A stretch of DNA of 64,000 nt from Bolinopsis microptera. Taxonomy: Eukaryota; Ctenophora; Tentaculata; Lobata; Bolinopsidae. The position numbers and the translations under genes were made by a program. Of this stretch, positions 10,597 through 51,186 are shown piece after piece; positions within the stretch are counted from its first letter, which is position 1, and each line of letters begins with the position of its first letter. A model generated the notes under the pieces. It worked only from the letters and a program-made list of their open reading frames with translations, was not told where the DNA came from and ran no database searches. Location: assembly GCF_026151205.1 (NCBI RefSeq), contig NC_087074.1, positions 1,426,001 to 1,490,000 of the forward strand. The letters run 5' to 3'.

Positions 10597-10869
10597 GGTA
10601 TGTGAGGTTTTAAGTAGTCTTACCCTTGACATTGTGCACATGGAGAAGCAAGCTTATGTTATATTTGTTGACCGGATAACCAGGTAACCAGGTAACCAGG
10701 TAACCAGGTAACCAGGTAACCAGGTAACCAGGTAACCAGGTAACCAGGTAACCAGGTAACCAGGTAACCAGGTAACCAGGTAACCAGGTGTGTGAGGTTT
10801 AAGTAGTCTTACCCTTGACATTGTGCACATGGAGAAGCAAGCTTATGTTATATTTGTTGACCGGTTCCA
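10597..10869 (-). repeat. Duplicated 3' half of KIFBP exon 2 with its donor, split by an 8-bp array
   Basis: The segment from GACCGG through the end of exon 2, the donor and the first intron bases is present twice (10793-10866 and 10597-10676). Between the copies, about 14 tandem repeats of the 8-mer AACCAGGT fill 10675-10789. On the coding (-) strand the second copy lies in intron 2, so the gene shows the exon end plus GTAAGA donor twice in a row. Copy similarity is very high, so the event is recent. Confidence 0.85.
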
Positions 10870-21998: not shown

Positions 21999-22033
21999 TA
22001 GTGGACTGTAATCAGAACAGGTATCTAGATAGT

Positions 22034-22165
22034 CTAAGAATTGTTTAACAATACAACATTATGAGCACGTTTGAAAAGAAATGTTTTCAGATAAACTTTT
22101 AAAAAGTCCAATGTTGTACAATTCTTAATTTCAAATGGTAGTTCATTCCATAATTTAGGGCCAAC
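22034..22165 (-). pseudogene. C-terminal fragment of a third LINE RT
   Basis: Minus-strand frame with GPKLWNELPFEIKNC, then LDFLKVYLKTFLFKRA, ending at a stop at 22034. This is the C-terminal signature of LINE ORF2 proteins, here without the polymerase. It lies just upstream, in element orientation, of the 719-codon RT and may be a separate older insertion. Confidence 0.75.
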
Positions 22166-28081: not shown

Positions 28082-31000
28082 ATGCATGTTGACACGCCAA
28101 GGGTGTTGGTGTGGCCAAATCAGGACATATTCAAGCATGGAATACTGGCTGGATTTCCTGCCTCTTTTGGCACAGCTGAAAACCTCTCAAAATTCCTCAT
28201 GTACTGTAGAACAAAAGGAAAGAATGGCTGGCCAAATGTGTGGTAAGTAATCAAATTTTTAAAATTTCTTACTTACAACTTTACATCCGATTATTTGCAT
28301 TGTTTCTTGAAAATAATATGCCTTGAATGCTCTGGTAGGATATAAATCAATCCTAATTTGTTTCAGTTATGCTATTTGGGAAAGCTATGCTCAGCGTAAT
28401 TTCAACATGACATCAGATTTAGCCTGCCTGTTTTTTGAGTCTTGTCGTCACATTTGCATGCCAACAAAAGACACTTCAGCGTGGGATGACAGGTATGAGC
28501 AAAGTAACTATTCAATAATAATTACATTGATAGTTGGATTGATAGTTGGAAAATATCCGGTTGAGAGACAAGGACAACCGGATGTCTCTCAACCGGATAT
28601 TATCCAACTATCAGTATTTCAATCATGAGACTAATAAACAGCGAACTATTCCATCATTTAACAATTACATTTTAATGAATATTGTTATCTCCTTTGCCTA
28701 CTTAGGTAAATTAAAGCAAATGTAACAAAGCTCTTATAAACTGTATTCCAGATACTCAGCAAATGTAACAAAGCGCTTATAAAATGTATTCCAGATACTC
28801 AGCAAATGAAACAAAGCTCTTATGAAATGTATTCCAGATACTCAGCATGCTCATCAGAAGACACAAAGAGCAGGATGAGAGACAAAGTGAGTGTTAACAC
28901 TGTCCATCTTGCACTTTACATGTACTCTCAGAATGTTACTCTCATGCAGACTCAGAAGTTTTCACTTAGATCAGGTAAATTGGACGAATTTCACTGTTGC
29001 TGTGTATTCTATAGCTTATTTTTCGAATCTAATTTTCCGCATAGATACTGAGTATATATTCTGAAAAATAAAAAATCATTTAGTTCGTAACCAATACATC
29101 GTGTGCCAATATAAGTGTTACGGTTAATATCTTATCCATTATTCCGAGAAGTCTACTAAACTCACAAAATCTCAGAGGAGTTCCCGACAGACCGCAAGGC
29201 TAAGAAGAAAAGTATAGACGTCAGGTTTATTGAAACTTTCCTCTCTGATATTATCAAAATACTATCAGAGCCTGATAGCAAAGGACTCCCTCTTGATAAG
29301 GTTTTATAAATGATTTATATCTCTTTAATGTTAAAATGGTTGCCATAATAGCTAATTGTATGGACTTAGTTTTCTCCCAACTCTTTTAAAAGTAAACAAA
29401 CCCTAACAAACACATTTCAGCAACCAATGAGTGTAGCAAACGTTTCCTCGCTCGGTGTTATGTTTACAGTGTACACAGAGAACTCTATTCGTCCTTTACA
29501 TGAAGTATTACAGCAACAAGCCCACGCTACAGTCTGCTCCTTCAGCAAGGTTTGTGTGTTGCTAATCTGTGACGACAGGAGAGTGCAGTGTGAAAGAGAA
29601 CCTTCTTCAGGATTAATACTTGTTGTTAAAAAATGTAATTATGAAAGATGTAGAATAGTGTGATCACGACAGTTGTTAACAACCGGATAGATGCAGCCTC
29701 GGTTACCACAGCTACAGGGCCAGGAGTACACTCAATTGCTCCTACCTACTTTAGTACTTTGAGTCGGAAAAAACCGAACATTTTAAATTCCTGTAATTTT
29801 ATATCCTTTTTGGGGGTTGGAACTTCTACTTCCATCTCAGTTTTGATATTGCCGTACTGTAGCTGGTACTGTAAGATTATTCATATTAATATAACAGTAC
29901 CTGCTACCTGCCCGTGTGGGTAAGCTGGTGTCTCCTATCCGCAATTAAACTCCCATTGGAAGGCACTGGGCCTCTACTACTTTTAATACTTTCAACACTA
30001 CTATATAACAAATAATTTGAGGACCCCGAACTCAATTTTGATTCTCTACTGACTCTGCTGATCTGCACTGTTTCACTTTGTAAAAGAAGTGCGCAATGAT
30101 CGGAGAAGGTGGTTTTGATGATGAGGGTAACAGGTCCTCAATCTCGTTACAGGATGATACGCCAAAGAATGACAGGAATGTTAGCGAAGATATGTTATCC
30201 CCGCAACGTTTCACACCTACCCTGAACTCATCCACATCCTCTGAAAGTACTCAACAGCGACAAGGTAACATTCTTCAATACCAGTTTGCCTACATCAAAG
30301 ACGGCACTTGTAACACCTGTAATGATGTTCAAGCTAATGACACTGCTCTTACCTGCTTTTTGTGTAAATCGTCATTTCATGCTGTTTGTCGAGATGCTGA
30401 TAAAGATAGGATCAATAATGCTGTAATCTGTCCTCGCACTTTCTTCAAAGCATACTCCGACAGAAACGCAACCAAGGGTGTTAACAGTTCCAGATTTGGG
30501 ACTTTTACGTTTGTGTGTAATGTCTGCAAGACACACTCTGAACAGAACTCCGCAGTCAGTGCCGAAAGTAAAGTCGACCTGATTGACAGGCGAGTAGATA
30601 ATCTGACCCAATCTATGGAGGACATGAAGGGTTTACTTATGAAAGTTGTGAATATGAAAACATCTCCGGACAAAACTGAAATTTCTTCTCCTCCATCTCC
30701 AGCACCAGTTGCCCCTTCATATCGCTCTGTATTAATCATGTCCAGCAAAACACCAGAAAATCAAGCAAAAGATCACCAAGAAGAAGTTGACAAAATCATC
30801 AAAGACAACGCCATTCATGCTGACAAACGGTATGTCAACAAGAACGGGGACATTGTGGTTGTGTGTCCGACAACGGCTGACAGGGAAAATCTTGTCAAGA
30901 AAGTATCCCAGCAACTTCCAGAAATGAAAACGCACCAGCCACCAGAACGTTTGCCCACAATCTCTGTTGCTAACCTTGCTGATAATTATTCTGAAGAAGA

Positions 31001-34000
31001 TCTAGAAGACCTGCTCCTTCAAGCTCACCCCAACATTAAGGCATTAAAATCCCAGGGTGAAACATTTTCTGTACTAAAAGTTAAACCTCAGATCAAAAAC
31101 AGCAGCAAGCATCAAGCTACTATACGAGTTAGTAACAATATCAGGAAAATCATAGAACAACAGGGAGATCGGCTATACATCAGTTCGTTTAGTTGCAAAG
31201 TTTATGATCAATTTCATGTAAAACGATGCAACAACTGCCAAGGTTTTGGACACTACAGGTCGGAGTGCGAATCAGAAAAAGCTATTTGTGGTTATTGTTC
31301 CAAGAATCATACGTCAGAAGATTGTCCAGAAAAGAAAACTAATAGTCGTATTTCATGCTGCATTAACTGCTCTAAGGGCAAGTATCGGGATGAAAGAAAC
31401 ACACACACGGCATTTGATAGGACATGTCCAGCTTATGTTGCTGAACAGCAGCATCTCCGCAAAACTATCAATTACTACAGTTCAAAAAACTTGTAAGCAG
31501 TGGTCTGAAATCCTCTCCGGCGGAGATTCTTGGCTGTTGCTGGAATGTGAGATCTCTCAATAATAAGATTCAACCAATCATGGAATCTATAATCGACCAA
31601 GGAATCTCTGTCCTTTTTGTCACTGAGACTTGGCTCACCAGCATGAAGAATGATGTTACTGCTACCATCAAGTCTTACGGCTATAACTTGATTCACTACA
31701 TCAGGAAAGACTCCGCTAAATGCAGAGGCGGAGGAGTTGGAATTATTTACAATTCAAGTGATTTGAACCTTACTCCTGTGTTTGATAAGTGTGGAGATAC
31801 GTTTGAAGCAGTTTTAGGCAAATTTCGAGACTCATCGGGTGATACTGTCCTCTGTGCTTGTGTTTACCGACCAGGGTCATTGACTGATGTATTTTTTGAA
31901 GATTTGGATGAGTTTATTGGGAACATATTCATGAAATACAAGAAGTTTTTAATCTGTGGTGATCTTAATATTCATTTGGATGATCATAAATCAAGAAACA
32001 CGGCCAAACTGACTGAAGTATTGGCCAGCTATGGACTGCATCAATACGTGAGAGATCCAACTCACAACAAAGGACATATTCTGGATGTTGTAATCTCCTC
32101 CCATCAGATAGTCAATCCAAAGAGTGTCACAGTAGACTCGCACACCTCGGAAATGTTCCCAAACTGTGACCATTTCCCGGTTACTTTTAGCCTCACAAAA
32201 ACAGTTGCAAGCAATCTCAACAAGAAAAAAGTTATCACATTCAGAAATGTCAAAGAAATTGACAAAAATTGTTTTGCGGATAATCTTGCTGAGGAATTGG
32301 TTACTGTAATGGATCCTGAGGGTCTATCACAAGCTGAAATGCCGTCATTTGAAAGCCGCATCAGCCTATACAACTCTAAGTGCCTAACTGTGCTGAATAA
32401 CCATGCTCCTCTCCTCACAAAGGAAATCAAAGAACGTAAGTCTGCCCCTTGGTTCGATGGTGAATATAAAGCACTTAGAAGCCAAAGAAGAAAAGCCGAG
32501 ACAAAGTGGAAAATCTCCGGATCTTTAACTGACAAGAAACACTATGAATCAATCAGAGAGCAGTGCACAGAACTCTCAGACAGGAAGAAACATGAGTTTT
32601 TCAAAGTCGAATTCATAAAGCATTCCTATTCTTCTAAGAGTCTTTTTAGATTTGTGGACACCTTTCTTGATCGGGATAAAAGCATTGTGTTGCCTTCGTC
32701 GGAGTCTCTCAAGGACACAGTCGAAAACTTTAACGTATATTTTCAGGAGAAAATAAAGGCAATACGAAATAACTTTGATCATGTGGAGTCTGACGATCAA
32801 ACGCCCTCTTACTGCGGAGAAAAACTAGCTGAGTTCTCTCCAACTACTCTAGAAGAACTAGAGGAGATAATCAAGGCATCTGAGATCAAGTCTTCTTCAA
32901 TTGACCCTCTACCTGCAAACATCTTTAAAGAAAACCTTGAGGTTCTACTACCCGTCTTAGTTGACATAGTAAATGCTTCATTATCTTCTGGCAGTATTGA
33001 TGGCGCTAAACTAGCTCATATCACACCCCTGATCAAGGGCCAGGGATTAGATAGTGATAATCTCAAGAATTACAGACCAATATCTAATCTTAGTTTTGTG
33101 GGCAAGTTGATAGAAAGAGTAGTCCTCAGGCGTCTAAATGAACATCTCGAAAACAACAACCTGAACATCCCACAGCAGTCTGGATACAAATCAAAACACA
33201 GCACCGAGACTCTGCTTGTGAGAGTTGTTAACGATCTACTCATTGCATCTACAGAAAGCAAGGCAACTGTTGTTCTTCTCCTAGATCTCAGCGCAGCTTT
33301 TGATACAGTTGACCACTGCAAACTACTGAACATCCTCAGAAATGAGTTGGGAATAACAGGGACAGCTTGGAAATGGTTCAGCAGCTTCCTCACAGGTAGA
33401 TGTCAAACGATTAAAGTTGGAAATGAGGAATCTTATGAGATAGTGATTAAGTTTGGAGTCCCACAAGGCTCTGTGCTGGGTCCGGTCCTGTTCAACATCT
33501 ACATTCGCTCTTTGTACTCAGCAGCACATGATTTGAACTTCTCCATCCAGGGTTACGCCGACGATCATCAGCTGTATAAAAGTTTCAAGCCAAACGAGGA
33601 GCCCACCGTCCTTATCAACGATGTTCCCAAATGTTTCCAAGAAATTAATGACTGGATGAAAAAACATTATCTACAGCTCAATGCAGGAAAAACTGAGATT
33701 CTTGTCTTTGGGACACCGCTTGTTCTCCAGCAGCTGTCCATAGGGGGCGTGTTTGTTAACTCTGAGACGTGTGTCAGGCTGTCACCTGTTGCAAAGAACC
33801 TCGGATTTCGTCTCGACTCTCAACTAAACTTTGGTGAGCAAATCAAGCAACTTAAAACATCGTGTTTTCTGAAACTAAGAGACCTTGCTAAGATGAAAAC
33901 TTTCCTCACAACCAAACAGATGGGAACACTGACTCAAGCAATTGTAATCTCATCGCTTGACTACTGCAATGCACTTTACTACGGTTGTAGTCAAGCCTCA

Positions 34001-37000
34001 ATTACGCAGCTGCAGAACATTCAGAACCGAGCATGCCGTCTGGTTTTTGGATTAAAGAAGAGAGACTCAGTCGAGGAGAAGCTCAAATCCCTTCATTGGC
34101 TCAAGGTGAAGGAGAGGATTGAGTTTAAGTTATGCTTACTGATTTTCGAAGCAGTCAATGGTGTTGCTCCTGCATATCTGTGTGATCTAGTAACATTTGT
34201 TAGTTCGAGTAGCAGAAGAACTTCCTCCTTACACCTACCCGTCGGATCTACAAGATCACACCCAAGAGCATTTCAGACTGTTGCTCCGAAAATCTGGAAC
34301 CAACTACCAATTGAAATTAAGACTTGTTCCGATGTTGATCTGTTCAAAACATTATTAAAAACTCACCTGTTTAAGAAAAGTTATGGCATGAGCGATTAAT
34401 TGACAATATAATAACTTTATGTTATTTGCTTAAACTGTTTAGGATGCAACCTAATGTCATGATCTTTTTGAACTTATTAGCAATTAGACTGTTAGCTCGC
34501 TTCACAAGCATGTCATCTTCGTTCCAAAACTTTTTATGTCCTATGCATACACTCCTTGATAATTATCTTGATCTAGCATCTTTGTTTCACACAATAGAGC
34601 ATAAGTTTTGTGGTTTATCCACTGGGCTTAGAGTTTGTGTTTAAGCTACCAAATTTTATTATTATTATTTATTACTAGTAAAATTAGTGGGCCTGGTGGG
34701 TATTAATTCCAGGCTTCCCCTCGCCCCAGATATGGCTTCCATTGTTAATCTGTGCACAAATCCGCAATCTCCGTGACAAAATCTGCGCTGGACTCCTCGG
34801 TTTGGAGGCGACATATTTAAAAAGAAAAAGAAAGAAATAAAGAATTTTACATATTATAAGGATTCAAATTTTTCATATGGAAGTCCTATATTTTGTTGCC
34901 ATAAAAATGTGAAGCCTTACGACCATTTTCCTGCCAATGGAATCCAGTGAACTGTGAACTATACGGATCATTAATTTCTCTGAGTCACTAATCTCTTTCA
35001 CATACTTACTGATATATTCAGTCGTACTTGAACATAATTACGAAATTTTACCCACACACTATCTATGAAAAGGTATTATATAGATATAGTGGCATTGTGC
35101 TGTATAAAAGGTAAATGTTTAATTTTATCCACTCAGATCTATATTCAGCACAATTACCCTCACAATCTGCGTTTCAGTTGACACAGACGTACAACACACA
35201 ACAAGTTCGCACGTGGTTACTGGATCACATGCACGCTAACCCCTTTACCAGTAAGCGGTGTCTGATGCACGGTAAAACAGTCTATCAGAAACCTGGGAGA
35301 CCACTCCGGAGATCTTCAGATATCAGTCTCGAGTAAGTAACTAGTAGTGTAACTATGGTTACTAGTTGTGAAACCAGGGAGACCCCTCAGGAGATCTTCA
35401 GATATCAGTCTCGAGTAAGTAACTAGTAGTGTAACTATGGTTACTAGTTGTGAAACCAGGGAGACCGCTCAGGAGATCTTCAGATATCTGTCTCGAGTAA
35501 GTAACTAGTAGTGTAACTATGGTAACTAGTTGTGAAACCAGGGAGACCGCTCAGGAGATCTTCAGATATCTGTCTCGAGTAAGTAACTAGTAGTGTAACT
35601 ATGGTAACTAGTTGTGAAACCAGGGAGACCGCTCAGGAGATCTTCAGATATCTGTCTCGAGTATGTGCTGTGAAGTGTGCAGTGATCATGATATAATATG
35701 GCACATGGGTTATGATTTAAGGCACATGATTTTAAGACCCTATTTTTTAGGGCACATGATTTTCCTGTGAAGACTGTGAATTACAACTTTGAGTAGAAAT
35801 TTAATTTCACTCTTTCCATCAATATATTTTGTTGGTACATCTTATTGTAAGATTCACAAACAAATCAGCAGTGAACTTTCAAGCACATCCCTACCTTTAT
35901 TTCCCTACTTTTATTTTCTAAACCTACATATCGTATATATCATATAACGTTGAAAAGGACTTTGAGGGGGTCTGTAGCATAGTATGTTTGTGTTTCACTG
36001 ATTTGTAAACTGAAGACGTAAATACAGCTAACAAACCATATCTCCCTAGGAACGGGTCCTCCAACACCCTGACACGGTGCAGGATAACAGTAAACAGTAG
36101 CTAACAAACCATCTCTCCCTAGGAACGGGTCCTCCAACACCCTGACACGGTGCAGGATAACAGTAAACAGTAGCTAACAAACCTCTCCCTAGGAACGGGT
36201 CCTCCAACACCCTGACACGGTGCAGGATAACAGTAAACAGTAGCTAACAAACCATCCCTCCCTAGGAACGGGTCCTCCAACACCCTGACACGGTGCAGGA
36301 TAACAGTAAACAGTAGCTAACAAACCATCTCTCCCTAGGAACGGGTCCTCCAACACCCTGACACGGTGCAGGATAACAGTAAACAGTAGCTAACAAACCA
36401 TCTCTCCCTAGGAACGGGTCCTCCAACACCCTGACACGGTGCAGGATAACAGTAAACAGTAGCTAACAAACCTCTCCCTAGGAACGGGTCCTCCAACACC
36501 CTGACACGGTGCAGGATAACAGTAAACAGTAGCTAACAAACCATCCCTCCCTAGGAACGGGTCCTCCAACACCCTGACACGGTGCAGGATAACAGTAAAC
36601 ACTACTAGTTACTATAGTTACACTTCATATATAGCTAACAAACCATCTCTCCCTAGGAACGGGTCCTCCAACACCCTGACACGGTGCAGGATAACAGTAA
36701 ACACTACTAGTTACTATAGTTACACTTCATATATAGCTAACAAACCATCTCTCCCTAGGAACGGGTCCTCCAACACCCTGACACGGTGCAGGATAACAGT
36801 AAACGACCACGAAACACCCAAAGAACACCGGCTACTTGCCATGCAGTACGTTTCCCGCCAAATCTCGGTCCTGAGCCCTGAAACACTGCTGAACCACCGT
36901 GTCCACGTGACCCATTGTAATGACGCCTCTATCTACCTGCTGTCCTCTATGAAGTGTGTATCTGTGAAGCAGTGTTCTAGGACTACCCTGGTTACTGGAC

Positions 37001-40000
37001 CTGTAGCTGGGACTTTGTACCTGACTGGGTGTATTAATATGAGGATTATCTCTATCGCTAGACGTGTGGTGCTCAGGTAGATTTGTGTTCTATTTTCTTT
37101 TTAGTAGAGCTGATTGTTGATTATGTATTTCTGTAACATTGGTTTAGCCGAGTAAGGTAAGTTTGTCCTGTAATAACGGTAAACAAATTAAAGTTACAAC
37201 CAAGAGAAATTAGAAAAACCCTATTTCTTCTTGAGCCAGTGCAGTGGTAAAGAACATCTTGAGCGTTTTTCCAAGACATTTAAAAGTTTCGGTCTTGTAA
37301 TGGCTTAAGGTGAAAGGACAATGAGTATACAATTCTCTTCAATATCATTTTTATCCCCCTACAGTTCTTGGGAATAGAAGTTTGACTGTATTTTGACTTT
37401 CGCTTTCCGACACAATGCGCATCCTGATATATAAATAAAGTTAAGGAAACAGATTGTAGTTCCGCAGATTTGCTGGTCATTAACTTCTACAAAAATAGAA
37501 ATATTTGAGCTACTCAAAGTCCACATATCATCATAATATTATAGTTATAGTATTCAACATAAATGTCATGTGCTACGAACTAAAACCTATGAAAGTGCAG
37601 TGTGACTTACAGTCGTGTGTCACATGACCCGTAACATGAGTATTAAAACAGAGTCGGTAAACAAAAGACGAAATGACTAACTATAATAGTTTTATTTCTG
37701 AAGAAAGTGACTTGTCAATAACATCTTGTAATACTATTTATCGTTATCAGAGGAACACAATTTATAACAATGATTATATTACATGTTAACGATATTTTAT
37801 CAATAAATACGAACAGCAACAGAAGGATATATATCCCCAGGAACTGTCACAGTTGTAAGCTCTACATCCTGACCCCTACCCTCCCCAGGAACTGTCACAG
37901 TTGTAAGCTCTACATCCTGACCCCTACCCTCCCCAGGAACTGTCACAGTTGTAAGCTCTACATCCTGACCCCTACCCTCCCCAGGAACTGTCACAGTTGT
38001 AAGCTCTACATCCTGACCCCTACCCTCCCCAGGAACTGTCACAGTTGTAAGCTCTACATCCTGACCCCTACCCTCCCCAGGAACTGTCACAGTTGTAAGC
38101 TCTACATCCTGACCCCTACCCTCCCCAGGAACTGTCACAGTTGTAAGCTCTACATCCTGACCCCTACCCTCCCCAGGAACTGTCACAGTTGTAAGCTCTA
38201 CATCCTGACCCCTACCCTCCCCAGGAACTGTCACAGTTGTAAGCTCTACATCCTGACCCCTACCCTCCCCAGGAACTGTCACAGTTGTAAGCTCTACATC
38301 CTGACCCCTACCCTCCCCAGGAACTGTCACAGTTGTAAGCTCTACATCCTGACCCCTACCCTCCCCAGGAACTGTCATAGTTGTAAGCTCTACATCCTGA
38401 CCCCTACCCTCCCCAGGAACTGTCACAGTTGTAAGCTCTACATCCTTGATCCAGACCCCTACCCTCCCCAGGAACTGTCACAGTTGTAAGCTCTACATCC
38501 TGACCCCTACCCTCCCCAGGAAGTGTCACAGTTGTAAGCTCTACATCCTGACCCCTACCCTCCCCAGGAAGTGTCACAGTTGTAAGCTCTACATCCTGAC
38601 CCCTACCCTCCCCAGGAACTGTCACAGTTGTAAGCTCTACATCCTGACCCCTACCCTCCCCAGGAACTGTCACAGTTGTAAGCTCTACATCCTGACCCCT
38701 ACCCTCCCAAGGAACTGTCACAGTTGTAGGCTCTACATCCTGACCCCTACCCTCCCCAGGAACTGTCACAGTTGTAAGCTCTACATCCTGACCCCTACCC
38801 TCCCCAGGAACTGTCACAGTTGTAAGCTCTACATCCTGACCCCTACCCTCCCCAGGAACTGTCACAGTTGTAAGCTCTACATCCTGACCCCTACCCTCCC
38901 CAGGAACTGTCACAGTTGTAAGCTCTACATCCTGACCCCTACCCTCCCCAGGAACTGTCACAGTTGTAAGCTCTACATCCTGACCCCTACCCTCCCCAGG
39001 AACTGTCACAGTTGTAGGCTCTACATCCTGACCCCTACCCTCCCCAGGAACTGTCACAGTTGTAAGCTCTACATCCTGACCCCTACCCTCCCCAGGAACT
39101 GTCACAGTTGTAAGCTCTACATCCTGACCCCTACCCTCCCCAGGAACTATCACAGTTGTAAGCTCTACATCCTGACCCCTACCCTCCCCAGGAACTGTCA
39201 CAGTTGTAAGCTCTACATCCTGACCCCTACCCTCCCCAGGAACTGTCACAGTTGTAAGCTCTGCATCCTGACCCCTACCCTCCCCAGGAACTGTCACAGT
39301 TGTAAGCTCTACATCCTGACCCCTACCCTCCCCAGGAACTGTCACAGTTGTAAGCTCTGCATCCTGACCCCTACCCTCCCCAGGAACTGTCACAGTTGTA
39401 AGCTGTACATCCTGACCCCTACCCTCCCCAGGAACTGTCACAGTTGTAAGCTCTACATCCTGACCCCTACCCTCCCCAGGAACTGTCACAGTTGTAAGCT
39501 CTACATCCTGACCCCTACCCTCCCCAGGAACTGTCACAGTTGTAAGCTCTACATCCTGACCCCTACCCTCCCCAGGAACTGTCACAGTTGTAAGCTCTAC
39601 ATCCTGACCCCTACCCTCCCCAGGAACTGTCACAGTTGTAAGCTCTACATCCTGACCCCTACCCTCCCCAGGAACTGTCACAGTTGTAAGCTCTACATCC
39701 TGACCCCTACCCTCCCCAGGAAGTGTCACAGTTGTAAGCTCTACATCCTGACCCCTACCCTCCCCAGGAACTGTCACAGTTGTAAGCTCTACATCCTGAC
39801 CCCTACCCTCCCCAGGAACTGTCACAGTTGTAAGCTCTACATCCTGACCCCTACCCTCCCCAGGAACTGTCACAGTTGTAAGCACTACATCCTGACCCCT
39901 ACCCTCCCCAGGAACTGTCACAGTTGTAAGCTCTACATCCTGACCCCTACCCTCCCCAGGAACTGTCACAGTTGTAAGCTCTACATCCTGACCCCTACCC

Positions 40001-43000
40001 TCCCCAGGAACTGTCACAGTTGTAAGCTCTACATCCTGACCCCTACCCTCCCCAGGAACTGTCACAGTTGTAAGCTCTACATCCTGACCCCTACCCTCCC
40101 CAGGAACTGTCACAGTTGTAAGCTCTACATCCTGACCCCTACCCTCCCCAGGAACTGTCACAGTTGTAAGCTCTACATCCTGACCCCTACCCTCCCCAGG
40201 AACTGTCACAGTTGTAAGCTCTACATCCTGACCCCTACCCTCCCCAGGAACTGTCACAGTTGTAAGCTCTACATCCTGACCCCTACCCTCCCCAGGAACT
40301 GTCACAGTTGTAAGCTCTACATCCTGACCCCTACCCTCCCCAGGAACTGTCACAGTTGTAAGCTCTACATCCTGACCCCTACCCTCCCCAGGAACTATCA
40401 CAGTTGTAAGCTCTACATCCTGACCCCTACCCTCCCCAGGAACTGTCACAGTTGTAAGCTCTACATCCTGACCCCTACCCTCCCCAGGAAGTGTCACAGT
40501 TGTAAGCTCTACATCCTGACCCCTACCCTCCCCAGAAACTGTCACAGTTGTAAGCTCTACATCCTGACCCCTACCCTCCCCAGGAACTGTCACAGTTGTA
40601 AGCTCTACATCCTGACCCCTACCCTCCCCAGGAACTGTCACAGTTGTAAGCTCTACATCCTGACCCCTACCCTCCCCAGGAACTGTCACAGTTGTAAGCT
40701 GTACATCCTGACCCCTACCCTCCCCAGGAACTGTCACAGTTGTAAGCTCTACATCCTGACCCCTACCCTCCCCAGGAACTGTCACAGTTGTAAGCTCTAC
40801 ATCCTGACCCCTACCCTGGCCCTCCCCAGGAACTGTCACAGGATTAAGCTCTACATCCTGACCCCTACCCTCCCCAGGAACTGTCACAGTTGTAAGCTCT
40901 ACATCCTGACCCCTACCCTCCCCAGGAAGTGTCACAGTTGTAAGCTCTACATCCTGACCCCTACCCTCCCCAGGAACTGTCACAGTTGTAAGCTCTACAT
41001 CCTGACCCCTACCCTCCCCAGGAACTGTCACAGTTGTAAGCTCTACATCCTGACCCCTACCCTCCCCAGGAACTGTCACAGTTGTAAGCTCTACATCCTG
41101 ACCCCTACCCTCCCCAGGAACTGTCACAGTTGTAAGCTCTACATCCTGACCCCTACCCTCCCCAGGAACTGTCACAGTTGTAAGCTCTACATCCTGACCC
41201 CTACCCTCCCCAGGAACTGTCACAGTTGTAAGCTCTACATCCTGACCCCTACCCTCCCTAGGAACTGTCACAGTTGTAAGCTCTACATCCTGACCCCTAC
41301 CCTCCCCAGGAACTGTCACAGTTGTAAGCTCTACATCCTGACCCCTACCCTCCCCAGGAACTGTCACAGTTGTAAGCTCTACATCCTGACCCCTACCCTC
41401 CCCAGGAACTGTCACAGTTGTAAGCTCTACATCCTGACCCCTACCCTCCCCAGGAACTGTCACAGTTGTAAGCTCTACATCCTGACCCCTACCCTCCCCA
41501 GGAACTGTCACAGTTGTAAGCTCTACATCCTGACCCCTACCCTCCCCAGGAACTGTCACAGTTGTAAGCTCTACATCCTGACCCCTACCCTCCCCAGGAA
41601 GTGTCACAGTTGTAAGCTCTACATCCTGACCCCTACCCTCCCCAGGAACTGTCACAGTTGTAAGCTCTACATCCTGACCCCTACCCTCCCCAGGAACTGT
41701 CACAGTTGTAAGCTCTACATCCTGACCCCAACCCTCCCCAGGAACTGTCACAGTTGTAAGCTCTACATCCTGACCCCTATCCTCCCCAGGAACTGTCACA
41801 GTTGTAAGCTCTACATCCTTGATCCAGACCCCTACCCTCCCCAGGAACTGTCACAGTTGTAAACTCTACATCCTGACCCCTACCCTCCCCAGGAACTGTC
41901 ACAGTTGTAAGCTCTACATCCTGACCCCTACCCTCCCCAGGAACTGTCACAGTTGTAAGCTCTACATCCTGATCCCTACCCTCCCCAGGAACTGTCACAG
42001 TTGTAAGCTCTACATCCTGACCCCTACCCTCCCCAGGAACTGTCACAGTTGTAAGCTCTACATCCTGACCCCTACCCTCCCCAGGAACTGTCACAGTTGT
42101 AAGCTCTACATCCTGACCCCTACCCTCCCCAGGAACTGTCACAGTTGTAAGCTCTACATCCTGACCCCTACCCTCCCCAGGAACTGTCACAGTTGTAAGC
42201 TCTACATCCTGACCCCTACCCTCCCCAGGAACTGTCACAGTTGTAAGCTCTACATCCTGACCCCTACCCTCCCCAGGAACTGTCACAGTTGTAAGCTCTA
42301 CATCCTGATCCCTACCCTCCCCAGGAACTGTCACAGTTGTAAGCTCTACATCCTGACCCCTACCCTCCCCAGGAACTGTCACAGTTGTAAGCTCTACATC
42401 CTGACCCCTACCCTCCCCAGGAACTGTCACAGTTGTAAGCTCTACATCCTGACCCCTACCCTCCCCAGGATCTGTCACAGTTGTAAGCTCTACATCCTGA
42501 CCCCTACCCTCCCCAGGAACTGTCACAGTTGTAAGCTCTACATCCTGACCCCTACCCTCCCCAGGAACTGTCACAGTTGTAAGCTCTACATCCTGACCCC
42601 TACCCTCCCCAGGAACTGTCACAGTTGTAAGCTCTACATCCTGACCCCTACCCTCCCCAGGAACTGTCACAGTTGTAAGCTCTACATCCTGACCCCTACC
42701 CTCCCCAGGAACTGTCACAGTTGTAAGCTCTACATCCTGACCCCTACCCTCCCCAGGAACTGTCACAGTTGTAAGCTCTACATCCTGACCCCTACCCTCC
42801 CCAGGAACTGTCACAGTTGTAAGCTCTACATCCTGACCCCTACCCTCCCCAGGAACTGTCACAGTTGTAAGCTCTACATCCTGACCCCTACCCTCCCCAG
42901 GAACTGTCACAGTTGTAAGCTCTACATCCTGATCCCTACCCTCCCCAGGAACTGTCACAGTTGTAAGCTCTACATCCTGACCCCTACCCTCCCCAGGAAC

Positions 43001-45380
43001 TGTCACAGTTGTAAGCTCTACATCCTGACCCCTACCCTCCCCAGGAACTGTCACAGTTGTAAGCTCTACATCCTGACCCCTACCCTCCCCAGGAACTGTC
43101 ACAGTTGTAAGCTCTACATCCTGACCCCTACCCTCCCCAGGAACTGTCACAGTTGTAAGCTCTACATCCTGACCCCTACCCTCCCCAGGAACTGTCACAG
43201 TTGTAAGCTCTACATCCTGACCCCTACCCTCCCCAGGAACTGTCACAGTTGTAAGCTCTACATCCTGACCCCTACCCTCCCCAGGAACTGTCACAGTTGT
43301 AAGCTCTACATCCTGATCCCTACCCTCCCCAGGAACTGTCACAGTTGTAAGCTCTACATCCTGACCCCTACCCTCCCCAGGAACTGTCACAGTTGTAAGC
43401 TCTACATCCTGACCCCTACCCTCCCCAGGAACTGTCACAGTTGTAAGCTCTACATCCTGACCCCTACCCTCCCCAGGAACTGTCACAGTTGTAAGCTCTA
43501 CATCCTGACCCCTACCCTCCCCAGGAACTGTCACAGTTGTAAGCTCTACATCCTGACCCTTACCCTCCCCAGGAACTGTCACAGTTGTAAGCTCTACATC
43601 CTGACCCCTACCCTCCCCAGGAAGTGTCACAGTTGTAAGCTCTACATCCTGACCCCTACCCTCCCCAGGAACTGTCACAGTTGTAAGCTCTACATCCTGA
43701 CCCCTACCCTCCCCAGGAACTGTCACAGTTGTAAGCTCTACATCCTGACCCCTACCCTCCCCAGGAACTGTCACAGTTGTAAGCTCTACATCCTGACCCC
43801 TACCCTCCCCAGGAACTGTCACAGTTGTAAGCTCTACATCCTGACCCTTACCCTCCCCAGGAACTGTCACAGTTGTAAGCTCTACATCCTGACCCCTACC
43901 CTCCCCAGGAACTGTCACAGTTGTAAGCTCTACATCCTGACCCCTACCCTCCCCAGGAACTGTCACAGTTGTAAGCTCTACATCCTGACCCCTACCCTCC
44001 CCAGGAACTGTCACAGTTGTAAACTCTACATCCTGACCCCTACCCTCCCCAGGAACTGTCACAGTTGTAAGCTCTACATCCTGACCCCTACCCTCCCCAG
44101 GAACTGTCACAGTTGTAAGCTCTACATCCTGACCCCTACCCTCCCCAGGAACTGTCACAGTTGTAAGCTCTACATCCTGACCCCTACCCTCCCCAGGAAC
44201 TGTCACAGTTGTAAGCTCTACATCCTGACCCCTACCCGACCTCTCCTACTGGCAGGTTGTAACGATATCACCCTGGCTCCGTACAACACTTATTACAGAG
44301 GATTAGCAGGACATCTGTCTCACGCCACCTTCAGTGTGGTTAAGAACTTCTGGGATCAGCCCGCCTCCCCCATGTGCCTGGATGGTGGGTCTCTTCTAGG
44401 TGACGTACTTTTAATCTAAGTAATTTACCTGATAGTTAATTTCTAAGTAATTTAGATCTGATCTCGTGATATAGAGCTGATCTCGTGATATAGAGCTGAT
44501 GACGTGATATAGAGCTGATGACGTGATATAGATCTGATCACGTGATATACAGCTAATCACGTGTTATAGAGCTGATCACGTGTTACAGAGCTGATCACGT
44601 GATATAGATCTGATCATGTGTTACAGAGCTGATCACGTGATATAGATCTGATCACGTGTTATAGAGCTGATCACGTGTTACAGAGCTGATCACGTGTTAT
44701 AGAGCTGATCACGTGATATAGATCTGATCATGTGTTACAGAGCTGATCACGTGTTATAGAGCTGATCACGTGTTACAGAGCTGATCACGTGTTATAGAGC
44801 TGATCACGTGATAAATGATGAATGTGTAACACGTGATGATCAGGTGACAGTGGTAAAGTGTACCAGAAACTCCCTCCAGAACAGTTCCACCTCTTCTCCA
44901 TTCCCTTTAACACGGAGGGCACCACTACGGTACGTTTTCTTCCCTTGTTCAACTTAAATATTCGAGTTTGTATTGTGCGTTGAGAATTGTATGCGAGTAC
45001 TACACGACAGTGTACTCCACTACAATGTACTGTACTGCACTACAGTGTACTTTATTACACAGTGCTTTGCTGTATTTGTTATTGTCCTTTGGTACATGTT
45101 CATCTCCAAATAAGGACAGCAGATTAACATAACACTTATTTCACACGTAAACCATTCATAGGGCCTGGTGAACAAGTTACCTCCCGAATACGAAGAAGGC
45201 ACGATGCGCGCACGTGACCGCGTCAACAAGTGGTACGACAACGTGCAGAAATGCGAGTTGTCAGAAACACAAACGGTGCAACTAGCCGCCACCTTGCAGG
45301 CCCGCTTCCATGACTGGCTCGAAACCACCGGTCATCATAAGGAGTTGGAGGCCTTGATCAGACTGCGTGATAAATCTTAG
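28082..45380 (+). CDS. TBCCD1: TBCC domain-containing protein 1, complete, 10 exons
   Basis: Exons: 28082-28242, 28367-28492, 28838-28974, 29176-29300, 29421-29549, 35178-35332, 36759-37076, 44197-44384, 44844-44929, 45162-45380. All phases match and the total is 547 codons plus stop; human TBCCD1 has 557. Matches run the whole length: TPRVLVWPNQDIFKHGIL at the N-terminus, SDLACLFFES, RSEEFPTDR, RPLHEVL, TWLLDHMHANPF, then the C-CAP/TBCC beta-helix (about residues 285-440) with SIYLLSSMKCVSVKQC, VTGPVAGTLYLTGC, CKLYILTPTRPLLLAGC, ITLAPYNTYY, and FSIPFNTEGTTT and FHDWLETTGHHKEL at the end. TBCCD1 is a centrosome/basal-body and Golgi-positioning protein. Two donors fit exon 8 (44384 or 44399, both phase 1). 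Intron 5 holds a LINE; four junctions lie in tandem repeats. Confidence 0.93.
28540..28613 (+). repeat. Long hairpin in TBCCD1 intron 2
   Basis: The two arms are TGATAGTTGGA plus ATATCCGGTTGAGAGACA and their exact complements, separated by small AA/TA mismatches and a 12-base loop. That makes about 29 paired bases. It could be a tiny MITE or a miRNA-precursor-like stem. Confidence 0.75.
28716..28844 (+). repeat. 43-bp x3 tandem repeat containing the TBCCD1 exon 3 acceptor
   Basis: Unit starts at 28716, 28759 and 28802, each carrying TGTATTCCAG then ATACTCA. The third copy's AG at 28837 is the acceptor that keeps phase with exon 2. The upstream copies place equivalent AGs 43 and 86 bases earlier (exon starts 28795 and 28752). 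Since 43 is not a multiple of three, use of the nearer upstream copy would shift the frame. Confidence 0.88.
30096..31496 (+). CDS. LINE ORF1 protein with PHD-like finger and zinc knuckles
   Basis: 466 codons. Near residues 70-100 there is a PHD-like zinc finger (CNTCNDVQANDTALTCFLC then FHAVC). A predicted coiled coil follows at about 165-190 (DRRVDNLTQSMEDMKGLL). The C-terminal third has CCHC knuckles: CNNCQGFGHYRSEC, CGYCSKNHTSEDC and a third Cys-rich motif CCINC...CPAY. This order is known from ORF1 proteins of CR1/Jockey-group LINEs, which coat the element RNA. The last codons before the stop form an A_AAA_AAC heptamer (31484-31490) suited to -1 frameshifting into ORF2. Confidence 0.88.
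   Translation: MIGEGGFDDEGNRSSISLQDDTPKNDRNVSEDMLSPQRFTPTLNSSTSSESTQQRQGNILQYQFAYIKDGTCNTCNDVQANDTALTCFLCKSSFHAVCRDADKDRINNAVICPRTFFKAYSDRNATKGVNSSRFGTFTFVCNVCKTHSEQNSAVSAESKVDLIDRRVDNLTQSMEDMKGLLMKVVNMKTSPDKTEISSPPSPAPVAPSYRSVLIMSSKTPENQAKDHQEEVDKIIKDNAIHADKRYVNKNGDIVVVCPTTADRENLVKKVSQQLPEMKTHQPPERLPTISVANLADNYSEEDLEDLLLQAHPNIKALKSQGETFSVLKVKPQIKNSSKHQATIRVSNNIRKIIEQQGDRLYISSFSCKVYDQFHVKRCNNCQGFGHYRSECESEKAICGYCSKNHTSEDCPEKKTNSRISCCINCSKGKYRDERNTHTAFDRTCPAYVAEQQHLRKTINYYSSKNL
31484..31490 (+). promoter_or_regulatory. Candidate -1 ribosomal frameshift site A_AAA_AAC
   Basis: In the ORF1 frame the codons are TCA AAA AAC TTG TAA, so the heptamer is in the correct register with the stop one codon later. 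The -1 frame is open from here straight through ORF2. A short hairpin (TCTCC-GGC-GGAGA) starts about 23 bases downstream, which is further than usual for a stimulator. Confidence 0.65.
31490..34399 (+). CDS. LINE ORF2 polyprotein: endonuclease + reverse transcriptase
   Basis: The frame is open from the slippery site to 34399 (about 969 codons). The endonuclease begins ILGCCWNVRSLNNK, with the catalytic Asn before any ATG, then VTETWL (catalytic Glu), CGDLNIHLDD, KGHILDVVISS and NCDHFPV (the DH pair). Linker: APWFDGEYK. RT: NYRPISNLSFVGKLIE, SGYKSKHSTETLL, DLSAAFDTVDH, GVPQGSVLGPVLFNIYI and the catalytic YADD. The C-terminal region includes LDYCNALYYG, NIQNRACRLV and IWNQLP. The first 19 codons contain no ATG; the first GTG is 31547 and the first in-frame ATG lies inside the endonuclease. 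This makes independent initiation unlikely. CR1/Jockey group; no RNase H seen. Confidence 0.93.
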   Translation, partial: LVSSGLKSSPAEILGCCWNVRSLNNKIQPIMESIIDQGISVLFVTETWLTSMKNDVTATIKSYGYNLIHYIRKDSAKCRGGGVGIIYNSSDLNLTPVFDKCGDTFEAVLGKFRDSSGDTVLCACVYRPGSLTDVFFEDLDEFIGNIFMKYKKFLICGDLNIHLDDHKSRNTAKLTEVLASYGLHQYVRDPTHNKGHILDVVISSHQIVNPKSVTVDSHTSEMFPNCDHFPVTFSLTKTVASNLNKKKVITFRNVKEIDKNCFADNLAEELVTVMDPEGLSQAEMPSFESRISLYNSKCLTVLNNHAPLLTKEIKERKSAPWFDGEYKALRSQRRKAETKWKISGSLTDKKHYESIREQCTELSDRKKHEFFKVEFIKHSYSSKSLFRFVDTFLDRDKSIVLPSSESLKDTVENFNVYFQEKIKAIRNNFDHVESDDQTPSYCGEKLAEFSPTTLEELEEIIKASEIKSSSIDPLPANIFKENLEVLLPVLVDIVNASLSSGSIDGAKLAHITPLIKGQGLDSDNLKNYRPISNLSFVGKLIERVVLRRLNEHLENNNLNIPQQSGYKSKHSTETLLVRVVNDLLIASTESKATVVLLLDLSAAFDTVDHCKLLNILRNELGITGTAWKWFSSFLTGRCQTIKVGNEESYEIVIKFGVPQGSVLGPVLFNIYIRSLYSAAHDLNFSIQGYADDHQLYKSFKPNEEPTVLINDVPKCFQEINDWMKKHYLQLNAGKTEILVFGTPLVLQQLSIGGVFVNSETCVRLSPVAKNLGFRLDSQLNFGEQIKQLKTSCFLKLRDLAKMKTFLTTKQMGTLTQAIVISSLDYCNALYYGCSQASITQLQNIQNRACRLVFGLKKRDSVEEKLKSLHWLKVKERIEFKLCLLIFEAVNGVAPAYLCDLVTFVSSSSRRTSSLHLPVGSTRSHPRAFQTVAPKIWNQLPIEIKTCSDVDLFKTLLKTHLFKKSYGMSD
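34400..35177. other. LINE 3' UTR and rest of TBCCD1 intron 5
   Basis: Contains the probable LINE 3' end and then about 300 bp of host intron leading to the acceptor TGCGTTTCAG at 35177. The last 60 bases are open in several frames, but the phase-0 acceptor at 35177/35178 joins FSK to LTQT exactly as in the human protein. Confidence 0.6.
35293..35665 (+). repeat. 82-bp x~4.5 repeat containing the TBCCD1 exon 6 donor
   Basis: The exon 6 end with its donor (CAGATATC(A/T)GTCTCGA|GTAAGT) is repeated at exact 82-base steps: CTCGA at 35328, 35410, 35492, 35574 and 35656. The first four keep GTAAGT; the fifth has GTATGT. Each unit holds about 40 bases of exon end and about 40 of intron start (AACTAGTAGTGTAACTATGG). 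Confidence 0.92.
36030..36830 (+). repeat. 73-bp x10 repeat containing the TBCCD1 exon 7 acceptor
   Basis: CTCTCCCTAG|GAACGGGTCC recurs with the exon base A of GAACGGG at 36051, 36124, 36194, 36267, 36340, 36413, 36483, 36556, 36658 and 36760. Spacing is mostly 73, twice 70, and 102 for the last two units, which carry a 29-base insert with ACTACTAGTTACTATAGTTA. The tenth copy runs on into the rest of exon 7. Each unit contains the pyrimidine tract, the AG and about 43 exon bases. Confidence 0.93.
37077..37840. other. Unique part of TBCCD1 intron 7
   Basis: From the donor CAG|GTAGAT at 37077 to the start of the 48-bp array. AT-rich, with nothing recognised. Confidence 0.5.
37841..44237 (+). 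repeat. 48-bp x133 minisatellite carrying the TBCCD1 exon 8 acceptor
   Basis: The unit is GAACTGTCACAGTTGTAAGC, then TCTACATCCTGACCCCTACC, then CTCCCCAG (48 bases). Start-to-start distances are exact multiples of 48 except for three length variants: 7-base insertions in the units starting at 38417 and 41790, and a 6-base insertion near 40816. That gives 12 + 1 + 69 + 1 + 49 units plus the last copy, which is exon 8 itself from 44197. Each unit holds a branchpoint-like CTGAC, a C/T tract and an AG directly followed by the exon 8 start (G|AAC TGT CAC). Units are nearly identical, with a few recurrent single-base variants. The plus frame reads RNCHSCKLYILTPTLP and the minus frame TVPGEGRGQDVELTTV. 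Confidence 0.97.
44460..44815 (+). repeat. 19-bp x~18.7 repeat of E-box-like CACGTG in TBCCD1 intron 8
   Basis: The unit is GATCACGTGTTATAGAGCT, with variants TCTCGTG, GACGTG and CATGTG. About 13 units carry the palindrome CACGTG, several within TCACGTGA. The array fills most of intron 8, ending about 28 bases before the exon 9 acceptor; one more CACGTG follows at about 44830. Confidence 0.92.
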
Positions 45381-48067: not shown

Positions 48068-49057
48068 TAGCAAAAGATCTTAAACTCAGATTAATTAATC
48101 CTCAGAAGAGATATTTCAAGCGATTTTTTAAAGCTCTGTTTCATTTGATGACCGGGAAGTTGGTGAAGTAAAGAAAAACTGATTGAGTGAGTGTTGAATG
48201 GTAAATTAAATATTGTTTGTCTTTTGAGTTATTAATTATGTGGCAAGATGTTTGGATGAATTGTTATTTTAACTGTTTTTTATACGTTTTAACGGTTTAT
48301 CAGCTTTCAGATCAAGTAAGTTTTGATTTTGTACTTTATGGGTTATATGGTTAGGCTCGGGAATCGGGATGTACGACATTTATTAGTTTATTAACAGTTA
48401 CAGTGACGACATGATTAATGGCATTCAGCCATGCACCGTGCAATATACCTTTCTTATACATCTTCTCTCGCACAGGAATAGTTAAAGTTGGCAATTATTC
48501 CGTTAATTATACTGTTAATAGTCGTTGAAAGAAGCTTGTCAAGAGAGATGACGTTACTTTAGAATAAATAAAAAATATGTGTCTAACATTCCCATTCTTA
48601 ACCAGGTCAATTGTGCGAAAGTTTTTACTCAATCACATTGATTGTAGAAATGTTTGGTTTTTGATAGCGGTATGTTATGTAATAATAAGTTCTTCATATA
48701 AATGCAACTCAGTTTCTTAGTCTTTGTAAATAGCCACTGTAGAGTGTATATGTTCTTATTATATAATATTTTTATGGTTTTAAATTGACAATGTCGGTAA
48801 GATTTTTGTGTTTTCCAAAATCTAGAATTTCTATCGAGTTTCTTGTCGTATTACTTTGAAAACTGGTACTAAACATTCAATTTCAACACAGTTTTCAATT
48901 TCTCATGTTCTTGTATTACATTATTATGTATTATGTAAGTATTCTGACCAATCAACACAATGTAGGGGAGAATGAAAAGATGTGGCTCCGACCATTTGTA
49001 ACGACAATGTGAAGCTAACTAACGTGTATATATACACTGTATCTAGATATCCCTAAC
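48068..49057. other. Intergenic between the two kinase genes
   Basis: AT-rich with no exon recognised. A TATATATA tract lies at about 49026-49033, some 25 bases before the start codon of the second gene, and may be its TATA box or 5' UTR. Confidence 0.4.
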
Positions 49058-51186
49058 ATGGCCACATCTACCCTTTGGCTACATGCCAGCTTCTCAACCA
49101 ACCTTTCAAGGAAGAAGAAACTGAAAATAACATTTCCAGACGGTGATTATAAAGAAGCCTTTGATATCCTTTGCAGAACTGTGAATAAGATGTTGAAACA
49201 TAATCCAGATGCCGAGGTTTTAAAGCCAGAGATGGTGTATAAGCCAGAGGATGAGATGAACGGGGCAGGAAACTCTCTGGAGGATGAAATCGATTTTGAA
49301 GGAATGCTTGAGGGGCGTTCTAAAGGGGAGGGAGTCAGAGTAATCGTTACCACGACAGGTTTGTTTAAATAATGTTATTTAATGACAAATCAAAGTTGAA
49401 TTGTCTCCTTATATTTTGACCAGACATTAAAACCCCTACTAAGAATTAACCCTAAGTCCTAACCGTACAATTCCACTTCAGAAATGGGTAGTTTCGATAT
49501 GAGATCCTCGTCTGTTGGATCCTCATCACAAATTGCCCCATTGACCCCAGGCTCAATAACCAGGTATGTAGGTTGTGCTCATCACAAATTGCCCCATTGA
49601 CCCCAGGCTCAATAACCAGGTGTGTAGGTTGTGCTTATTAAACTGAGACTATGTAATACTAATTACTAAATTACGTGAATTAGTAGACAGTTTTTGGCAG
49701 TTCCAAATAATTTCTGATTATTCTGATTTTTGCGACAAATGCACTGTTACGTGAATAAGGTTCTCTTTCTATTAACAGATTAAGATCTCAGCGTCAATGA
49801 ATGATCAATGTAAAACCGTAGCAAGGACATCATTAATATTTGAGTAAATTTGTATTTTCTAAACCTGAAAGTTTTCGGATGAAACTACAATTTTCATAAC
49901 ATATATCTTGCCACCATTTAACTTTAAACTGTAATATTTTCATAACATATATCTTGCCACCATTTAACTTTAAACTGTAATATTTTCATAACATATATCT
50001 TGCCACCATTTAACTTTAAACTGTAATATTTTCATAACATATATCTTGCCACCATTTAACTTTAAACTGTAATATTTTCAGATCTGCATCATTCAATTTG
50101 AAAAGCATATACGAATCTCTGAGTAAAGCAGCTAAAAAACCTGGTTTAGATTCGTCATATTTTGTAAATCCCCTTACAAATAAAGTTCAAGATGTGCGAC
50201 TTGTAGATTTTAAATTTGAGGACGGTTCAGCGAGGGGAGGAGATTCCTGTTACGCCAGGGTTTTTGAAGCTACTTATAATGATAACCGCTTTGCTATCAA
50301 GAAAATTGATGGGATATTAATGGACTGCGAGAACAATCGACCCGCACTGGCTTTTGAAAGGGAAATGAAGTTCTTAAGAAAAACAACGGATTGGAAGTGC
50401 GAAAACATCGTCCAATTTCATGGTTTCATTCGAACTGGTGAAACAGCTCGACTAATTCTGGAGCTGATGGATAAGGACCTGTCGCAAACCATAGAGTCTC
50501 TTAAGAGGTCGGGATTATACAACAGAATGGTGGAAGAGAGCAAGGATTTTGAGGATATGGGGTACATTGTCTTAAGAGATGTCAGTAATGGACTGCGTTT
50601 CACTCATGGCCACAATCCTGAGAAAGAAATTTTCATGCATCGAGACATAAAATCGTCGAACATCATGTTCAAAAGAGCTGAACACCGATTTGCTATCATT
50701 GACTTTGGAACTACCAAAAAGATCACAGGAGAAGAAAATAAGTTGCACTCCGCAGGAGCAGGACAGCGGTACTATGAAGCTCCTGAGTGCACGGAGTTTA
50801 AACCAACCTACTGTGAGTCCTGTGACATTTGGTCAATGGGAATCACGTTGATAAAGTTCATAACCGGCAAGCATCCTATCTGGGATGATTCTTCTGAAGA
50901 ATCATCTTCAAGTGACGAACATATGAGGAACATCAAAAAGGACAATATCATATCTGAAAGAATAACAGGCAAAGGAATGGACGGTGAGAAGATTGATTAT
51001 CCTATTGGTCTCACCTCTCAATTTCTATCCCAGGAATTTAAAGATATGATCAACTCTTGTGTTAACCGGGATCCAACCGGTCGACCCTCTGCGCAAAATA
51101 TTCACAATTTTGCCAAAAATAGAGCTGATTCAATCGACCCACTTCGTGTTGAGGAACTTTTTGCCAAATTCTGTGGAAGTCGATAA
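49058..51186 (+). CDS. Divergent Ser/Thr protein kinase, copy 2, with N-terminal extension
   Basis: Three exons: 49058-49358, 49482-49563 and 50082-51186, with phases 1 and 2 that match, giving 495 codons. Exon 1 encodes about 100 residues with a basic start and KKKLKITFPDGDYKEAFDIL, then ...EIDFEGMLEGR and GVRVIVTTT; the alternation of strands and an acidic patch resembles a PB1-like domain (inference). Exon 2 is Ser-rich (MRSSSVGSSSQIAPLTPGS). Exon 3 is the kinase: FAIKKI, MHRDIKSSNIM, DFGTTK, YYEAPEC, DIWSMGITLI. The glycine loop is degraded (GGDSCYARVFEA). PB1 plus a STE7-like kinase is the MAP2K5 layout, but the catalytic domain is too divergent to name. The exon 2 donor and exon 3 acceptor lie next to tandem repeats. 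Confidence 0.85.
49510..49622 (+). repeat. 56-bp x2 repeat containing the kinase-2 exon 2 donor
   Basis: CATCACAAATTGCCCCATTG ... CTCAATAACCAG|GT(A/G)TGTAGG is present twice, with donors at 49564 and 49620. Using the second adds 56 bases and brings in a stop (CAT TGA), so the first is the productive donor. Confidence 0.88.
49891..50081 (+). repeat. 46-bp x4 repeat ending at the kinase-2 exon 3 acceptor
   Basis: TTTTCAT at 49891, 49937, 49983 and 50029 recurs at 46-base steps, followed by AACATATATCTTGCCACCAT. The next step falls at 50075 and reads TTTTCAG, the real acceptor. The four upstream copies therefore have AT where the splice site has AG. Confidence 0.88.

Follow-up and report, generated by a model that had tools for sequence, protein, structure and literature searches.

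Minisatellites that extend over exon-intron boundaries have been described in amphioxus as 'mirages', and the available portions of the two reports (PMC3087553, PMC3902484) place them in Adh3, the globin genes BflGb6 and BflGb9, TnC and PGBD5. According to the same portions, regular splicing of these genes is undisturbed, and the length of the repeats varies between haplotypes, as in BflGb6, which has haplotypes with 3 and 6 units (PMC3087553, PMC3902484). Variable internal repeats of minisatellite size were also found at exon-intron boundaries in human segmental-duplication paralogues; as far as the available text of that report goes, they have 30-bp units and 4 repeats on average and can create novel introns or alternative transcripts (PMC2812944). 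The available part of PMC3087553 also names the Rogers model, in which introns are gained by tandem duplication.

We analyzed a stretch of 64,000 nucleotides (C3:1426001-1490000 of the 264.65-Mb genome), here called the window, from Bolinopsis microptera, whose phylum is Ctenophora according to the taxonomy record. The window contains a TBCCD1 gene in which a 48-bp unit carrying the acceptor of exon 8 is repeated 133 times. This array has in common with the amphioxus mirages, as these are described in the available text, that tandem direct repeats span an exon-intron boundary (5' or 3' in the mirages), that the authentic copy stands at the end of the cluster and that the repeats bear AG or GT. 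We consider the array, with a probability of roughly 0.78, to be a splice-junction minisatellite of the mirage kind, in which the decoy acceptors are intronic and drift neutrally and the true exon is chosen most likely by exon definition.

Identity and exon structure of the gene

When the joined exons were used as a protein query, three proteins matched, the best of them being 'TBCC domain-containing protein 1-like isoform X1 [Bolinopsis microptera]'. The array-bearing gene has both the TBCC domain (PF07986) and a match to a TBCCD1 protein, so that the assignment to TBCCD1 in the sequence-only reading was confirmed by the domain. The ten spliced exons of the window translate letter for letter to the NCBI protein P0001 (552 aa). 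The exons are as follows, all on the plus strand:

28082..28242, exon 1, exact match to P0001
28367..28492, exon 2, P0001
28838..28974, exon 3, P0001
29176..29300, exon 4, P0001
29421..29549, exon 5, P0001; donor single in the window, in a 69-bp x6 array in the paralogue
35178..35332, exon 6, P0001
36759..37076, exon 7, part of the TBCC domain; donor doubled (78 bp x2) in the paralogue only
44197..44399, exon 8, last array copy plus 162 nt, required by P0001; donor GTGACG
44844..44929, exon 9, P0001
45162..45380, exon 10 with the stop codon, P0001

P0001 equals the splice product in which the last array copy alone serves as exon 8, which bears out the earlier view that this copy is exon 8 itself; the feature had been drawn to end at 44384, whereas P0001 places the end of exon 8 at 44399. 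We found a single strand of the CKLYILTPTRP type in P0001, a database model, and one each in P0002 and P0003, both from other organisms, as had been expected of TBCCD1. P0002 derives from a 1296-bp public contig that appears to be cDNA-like, and P0003 derives from EukProt; judging by its name style, we take P0003 to be a Pleurobrachia model.

Anatomy of the 48-bp array

The array lies in the 3' part of intron 7 and reaches into exon 8:

37834..44237, plus strand, 48-bp minisatellite of 133 copies (132 decoy acceptors and the start of exon 8)

TRF reported the interval 37834-44237 with a period of 48, 133.0 copies and 98% matches, and a per-copy count, in which the spacing was exactly 48 in 129 of 132 intervals, 55 in two and 54 in one, agreed with it, so that the array first noticed from the sequence alone is real. 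Of the unit, 7 nt (TCCCCAG) come from the intron, and the other 41 nt are those with which exon 8 begins. Identity to the consensus was found in 99 of the 133 copies, and the array holds 20 distinct copy sequences. As for the content ascribed to each unit beforehand, the 41 exon bases and the AG, kept in 133/133 copies, held up, but CTGAC was present in 127 of 133 rather than in each.

A 28-base piece of the unit occurs at 180 exact places in the 264.65-Mb genome and at none when it is read backwards. Since 112 of these places lie in the window array and the other 68 in the array of the paralogue described below, the piece occurs nowhere else in the genome; the unit does not resemble an introner, as dispersed copies elsewhere are absent among the exact matches of this piece. 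The earlier proposal that the array arose when a stretch bridging intron 7 and exon 8 was duplicated in tandem is supported, the last copy being exon 8. Copies 13 and 83 have an identical 55-bp variant; from this and the length differences, we infer that the array grew by slippage or unequal exchange.

Splice signals and reading frame

Exon makes up most of the unit; upstream of acceptors 2-133, both the pyrimidine tract and the branchpoint-like CTGAC therefore belong to the exon sequence of the preceding copy. Acceptor 1 lacks both signals, with a pyrimidine fraction of 0.41 and no yUnAy free of an intervening AG. At acceptors 2-133, the pyrimidine fraction is 0.76-0.82, and a yUnAy without an AG in between is present at 130 of the 132. 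Each copy thus supplies the signals to the next, and all decoys except the first locally resemble the true acceptor.

Acceptors 84-133 would give 0-49 extra repeats, as the reading frame behind them stays open throughout exon 8; behind acceptors 1-83 it does not. The statement of the sequence-only reading that the last 50 acceptors are in frame with 0-49 extra repeats was correct. All 88 acceptors of the paralogue array are open and in frame, so in-frame variants could arise silently.

A second TBCCD1 gene

A Pfam search revealed a second TBCCD1 on the minus strand at C3:1217566-1222985. By the same pattern as in the window, its array has 88 acceptors (89 copies by TRF), with the AG present in 85/88. 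Inverted homology extends over about 23.9-51.9 kb of the window (23901-51945) against the minus strand of C3:1201001-1261000, which gives a duplicated segment of about 28 kb that holds TBCCD1 and two kinase ORFs (Pkinase), the two segments lying about 250 kb apart on one chromosome. The 60 kb of the paralogue region contain no N gaps. The second copy could in principle be a misplaced allele, but the homology is confined to about 28 kb, is inverted and is free of N gaps; we therefore take the pair, as judged from the assembly, to be a segmental duplication. Introns 1, 2, 4 and 9 showed 93-97% identity between the paralogues, intron 5 measures 5628 nt in the window vs 1283 nt in the paralogue, and P0001 matches both gene copies equally. 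An ORF at 31445-34399, within TBCCD1 intron 5, resembles by eye a LINE reverse transcriptase/endonuclease, and other LINE-like ORFs were seen by eye at window 912-3467 and 19839-22058 and at 7944-10000 of L014, one of the random stretches described below.

Coding constraint and variation among the copies

The encoded protein is identical between the two paralogues at 552/552 residues. Their coding sequences differ by 38 nucleotides in 37 codons, with no residue changed (NG86 dS 0.106 and dN 0.0008, the latter from one codon with two changes), and the chance of 38 silent changes was about 3e-25 by a simple site-fraction estimate. The array copies revealed a different pattern. Relative to the unit, we found 12 nonsynonymous and 7 synonymous substitution types in the window and 11 and 1 in the paralogue; counted per array, these are 31 types, 23 nonsynonymous and 8 synonymous, and as 5 types are common to both arrays, there are 26 different types. 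These types fit the neutral expectation (p = 1.0) and are unlike the coding sequence with its 0/38 nonsynonymous differences (Fisher 6.6e-12), in a test that is small (31 types), omits copies of odd length (3 from the window array and 1 from that of the paralogue) and is compatible with rare or weakly selected translation. A function for an extra-strand protein was rejected by this test (23 nonsynonymous/8 synonymous). From the neutral copy variation set against the silent coding differences, the decoys are most likely spliced out and not translated.

A search for public proteins with the repeat, made with an 874-aa query from the last open frame and scoring the best 7990 candidates, found none, and the matches of the query were P0001 and fish TBCCD1. 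One course that had been envisaged, in which the cell tolerates or uses extra-strand variants, thus appears unsupported, given the neutral copies, the 38 silent differences and the lack of a repeat-bearing protein in this search. Exon 8 itself showed 0 differences between the paralogues in its first 41 nt and 4 in the other 162 nt. Divergence of the copies from the unit amounts to 0.5-0.7% per site; as this is below the 3-7% by which the paralogue introns differ, the arrays are probably being homogenised.

Other junction arrays in the TBCCD1 pair

Junction-spanning arrays lie on six exon edges of TBCCD1, in one or both gene copies:

28715..28847, plus strand, 43-bp x3.1 array over the exon 3 acceptor; acceptors: window 3, paralogue 2
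in the paralogue, 69-bp x6 array over the exon 5 donor; donors: window 1, paralogue 6
35288..35663, plus strand, 82-bp x4.6 array over the exon 6 donor; donors: window 5, paralogue 1
36026..36804, plus strand, 73-bp and 102-bp arrays over the exon 7 acceptor; acceptors: window 10, paralogue 2 (a regular-expression match at 41255, inside the 48-bp array, is excluded)
in the paralogue, 78-bp x2 over the exon 7 donor; donors: window 1, paralogue 2
48-bp array over the exon 8 acceptor; acceptors: window 133, paralogue 88

As evident from the 88-acceptor array of the paralogue and the arrays on the five other edges, all of which the sequence-only reading had overlooked, this is a recurrent kind of structure. 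Use of exon 6 donors 2-5 of 5 or of exon 7 acceptors 1-7 of 10 would lead to a stop, and exon 7 acceptors 8 and 9 are open. Each of the six distinct arrays in the gene pair whose period is at least 25 bp spans a junction; with arrays placed at random in a collapsed 4.6-kb gene, the probability of this is 2.4e-4 if any position is allowed and 1.1e-3 if positions wholly within an exon are excluded, under a null whose 25-bp cut-off was picked after inspection of the data and whose collapsed gene is our own reconstruction. A shorter repeat in intron 8 spans no junction:

44453..44810, plus strand, 19-bp x18.8 array whose end lies 33 bp from exon 9; the paralogue has 44 copies

Beyond TBCCD1, the window contains a probable seventh case, in which the exon is predicted from the reading frame:

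49522..49635, plus strand, 56-bp x2 duplication over a probable donor (SITR|GTATGT); single in the paralogue

This doublet lies between a 117-aa ORF at 49019-49372 and the downstream kinase ORF. A 46-bp x4.2 array with 100% matches at 49890-50080 ends at a probable acceptor of the kinase ORF (TTTTCAG|ATCTGC), with the AG unrepeated. By eye, the two ends of intron 6 (35333-36758) show related sequences in inverted orientation, TAACTAGTAGTGTAACTATGGTTACTAGT within the donor array and ACTACTAGTTACTATAGTTACACTTC within the acceptor array, and these could pair in the RNA. Simple repeats of 8 bp that resemble splice signals, TAACCAGG (x14.1) and ACCAGGTA (x121.9), are present at window 10677-10789 and in the paralogue region.

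Arrays elsewhere in the genome

Twenty random 10-kb stretches (L014-L033, 200 kb) contained 39 arrays with a period of at least 25. For most of them, judged without gene models, no junction was identified; in the arrays of L023, L024 and L028 and the first array of L033, no exon was recognisable by eye. Two others in these stretches, and one array in a stretch adjoining the window, lie on confirmed or candidate junctions:

L033 6331-6533, minus strand, 52-bp x3.9 array that covers an exon donor in a gene for a YME1L1-like protease (NCBI protein P0005)
L014 6766-7941, 60-bp x19.6 array with 20 donor-like words, a candidate donor array
L013 about 1844-2330, minus strand, seven acceptor copies (GCTTTGTATTTCAG|TTCGTG) spaced by 60-61 or 85 bp, with a reading frame immediately after them

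In L033, the database model P0005 reads across the array as from the first donor, which confirmed the junction, and the GT is lost in copies 2 and 4 of 4. The YME1L1-like identity rests on P0005, and the N-terminal piece matched no Pfam family above the cut-off. In L014, a donor-like CTC|GTGAGT (ENYL|GTGAGT) ends a short open frame, and the intron-like part is similar to TBCCD1 intron 6 (GTGTTACTATGGTTAC). The ORF downstream of this array resembles by eye a retroelement ORF, with a sub-threshold Pfam match (17.1 bits vs a cut-off of 33.1). The L014 array may lie over a junction. The L013 stretch adjoins the window and is not one of the random stretches; an assembly gap lies beside its acceptor copies, and its reading frame has a sub-threshold F5/8 type C match (19.7 bits vs a cut-off of 27).

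Word counts gave a further view. The word CAGGTAAGT has 2462 occurrences and 505 close pairs, and the reversed word has 1212 and 2; among the first 100 pairs listed, we found 14 clusters, some with a period of 11-20 bp. One cluster at G000:C1:6658351-6667021 repeats the word CAGGTAAGT every 57 bp for about 8 kb, and its first 700 bases (L034) form a degenerate CCAGGTAAGC minisatellite with units of about 57-60 bp and two CCAGGTAAGY words. No exon was seen in these 700 bases, and we rejected counts of tandem-donor words as proof of junction arrays. An automated exon-edge screen of 101 arrays was likewise set aside: several of its 16 flags were senseless as exons and it missed the arrays at 28715, 35288 and 49522 and in L014, so that it gives no rate. 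At G000:C8:7268823-7269127, the units of a 37-bp array (TTATTTCAG|GTAAGT) have an acceptor followed directly by a donor; this arrangement presumably resembles a recursive splice site.

The arrays suggest a genome-wide bias towards splice junctions. That an active process in Bolinopsis preferentially seeds junction arrays in many genes, with the spliceosome reliably picking the exon-proximal site among up to 133, is a tentative and somewhat doubtful extension.

Choice of the true acceptor and alternative explanations

A short piece straddling the boundary between intron 7 and exon 8 would have been tandemly duplicated and would then have grown by repeat instability, the exonic half of each copy (CTGAC and the C/T tract) serving as putative branchpoint and pyrimidine tract for the next copy. 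The last copy alone is joined to the full 203-nt exon, its putative enhancers and the donor at 44399, whereas each decoy has 41 nt of exon. Since a full exon with a donor follows the last acceptor only, we infer that its choice is most simply explained by exon definition; the decoys would then be intron and drift neutrally. The same duplication process has acted at other TBCCD1 junctions and in at least one other gene of the genome.

The array could instead vary the length of the protein, if alternative acceptors were used and the beta-helix of TBCCD1 thereby gained extra 16-aa strands, 1-49 of them from the window gene or up to 88 from the paralogue. The unit of 48 bp is a multiple of three, and the last 50 acceptors of the window and all 88 of the paralogue are open and in frame, as such a role would have it. 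However, the copies are neutral at the protein level (23 nonsynonymous, 8 synonymous) while the coding differences are silent in 38/38 cases, the 874-aa query found no repeat-bearing public protein among the best 7990 candidates scored, and P0002 and P0003, from other organisms with or without an array, have one strand each, which together make this explanation very unlikely. Somewhat less improbable, though still unlikely, is a regulatory role, in which competing acceptors would slow the removal of intron 7 or retain the transcript in the nucleus and the copy number would tune the level of TBCCD1. It would agree with the pyrimidine tract at all acceptors but the first, the branchpoint-like motif at nearly all and the different copy numbers of the paralogues (133 vs 88), but we found no sign of constraint on the decoy signals, and the AG is lost in 3/88 paralogue copies.

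An ordinary intronic minisatellite may also overlap an exon edge by chance in a repeat-rich genome. The 39 arrays in 200 kb of random sequence, most of them without a junction shown, speak for it, as does the fact that, when placed at random in the collapsed 4.6-kb gene, a unit of about 70 bp covers a junction in 27-36% of cases. Nevertheless, all six arrays of the gene pair with a period of at least 25 span a junction (2.4e-4 to 1.1e-3 under the null above, with its cut-off set after inspection), and three of the six are private to one gene copy, so we regard chance overlap as improbable, if not strikingly so. The assembly was made from long reads with wtdbg2, and Iso-Seq and RNA-seq of B. 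microptera went into its annotation, as stated in the available part of its report (PMC10232365). That the array is an artefact of this assembly, the single one examined, is hardly credible: long repeats are hard to assemble, but two separate loci show different variants and lengths, and the window array alone has its 20 distinct copy sequences. A mirage-like array, with the exon-proximal acceptor chosen by its exon, thus remains our preferred explanation.

Comparison with known systems

Regular mRNA is described in the available text for the amphioxus genes with mirages; at TBCCD1, the protein model P0001 and the 552/552 identity of the paralogues with its 38 silent differences would agree with a regular mRNA. 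In the mirages, length varies between haplotypes, according to the same text; the numbers compared for TBCCD1 are those of the two paralogues, which differ (133/88, 10/2, 5/1, 1/6, 1/2 and 3/2). The scale and host differ: the TBCCD1 arrays belong to a ctenophore and have 133 and 88 acceptors, whereas the mirages belong to a cephalochordate, with the 3 and 6 units reported for BflGb6. In TBCCD1, six junctions are involved in one gene pair, and both the constraint on the coding sequence and the neutral pattern of the copies were measured. In contrast to the human boundary minisatellites, as far as the available text describes them, no new intron was seen at TBCCD1. Intron gain by tandem duplication was reportedly also treated by Zhuo et al. 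in 2007. The intron-gain model and TBCCD1 share the duplication of a segment with splice signals; unlike in the model, an existing intron has been lengthened and its boundary multiplied in TBCCD1, with no new intron position seen. Within the titles and abstract openings that our literature search covered, which included few subscription papers, no report of such arrays in ctenophores was found.

With 133 near-equal local signals of which one is to be used, and the 88-acceptor paralogue as a replicate, the locus is a natural experiment in splice-site choice, and its arrays test whether the exon context, not the acceptor itself, decides. They raise the question of whether splice junctions are hot spots for the birth of minisatellites. 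The TBCCD1 arrays, as an extreme, multi-junction variant, extend the mirage phenomenon from amphioxus to a ctenophore.
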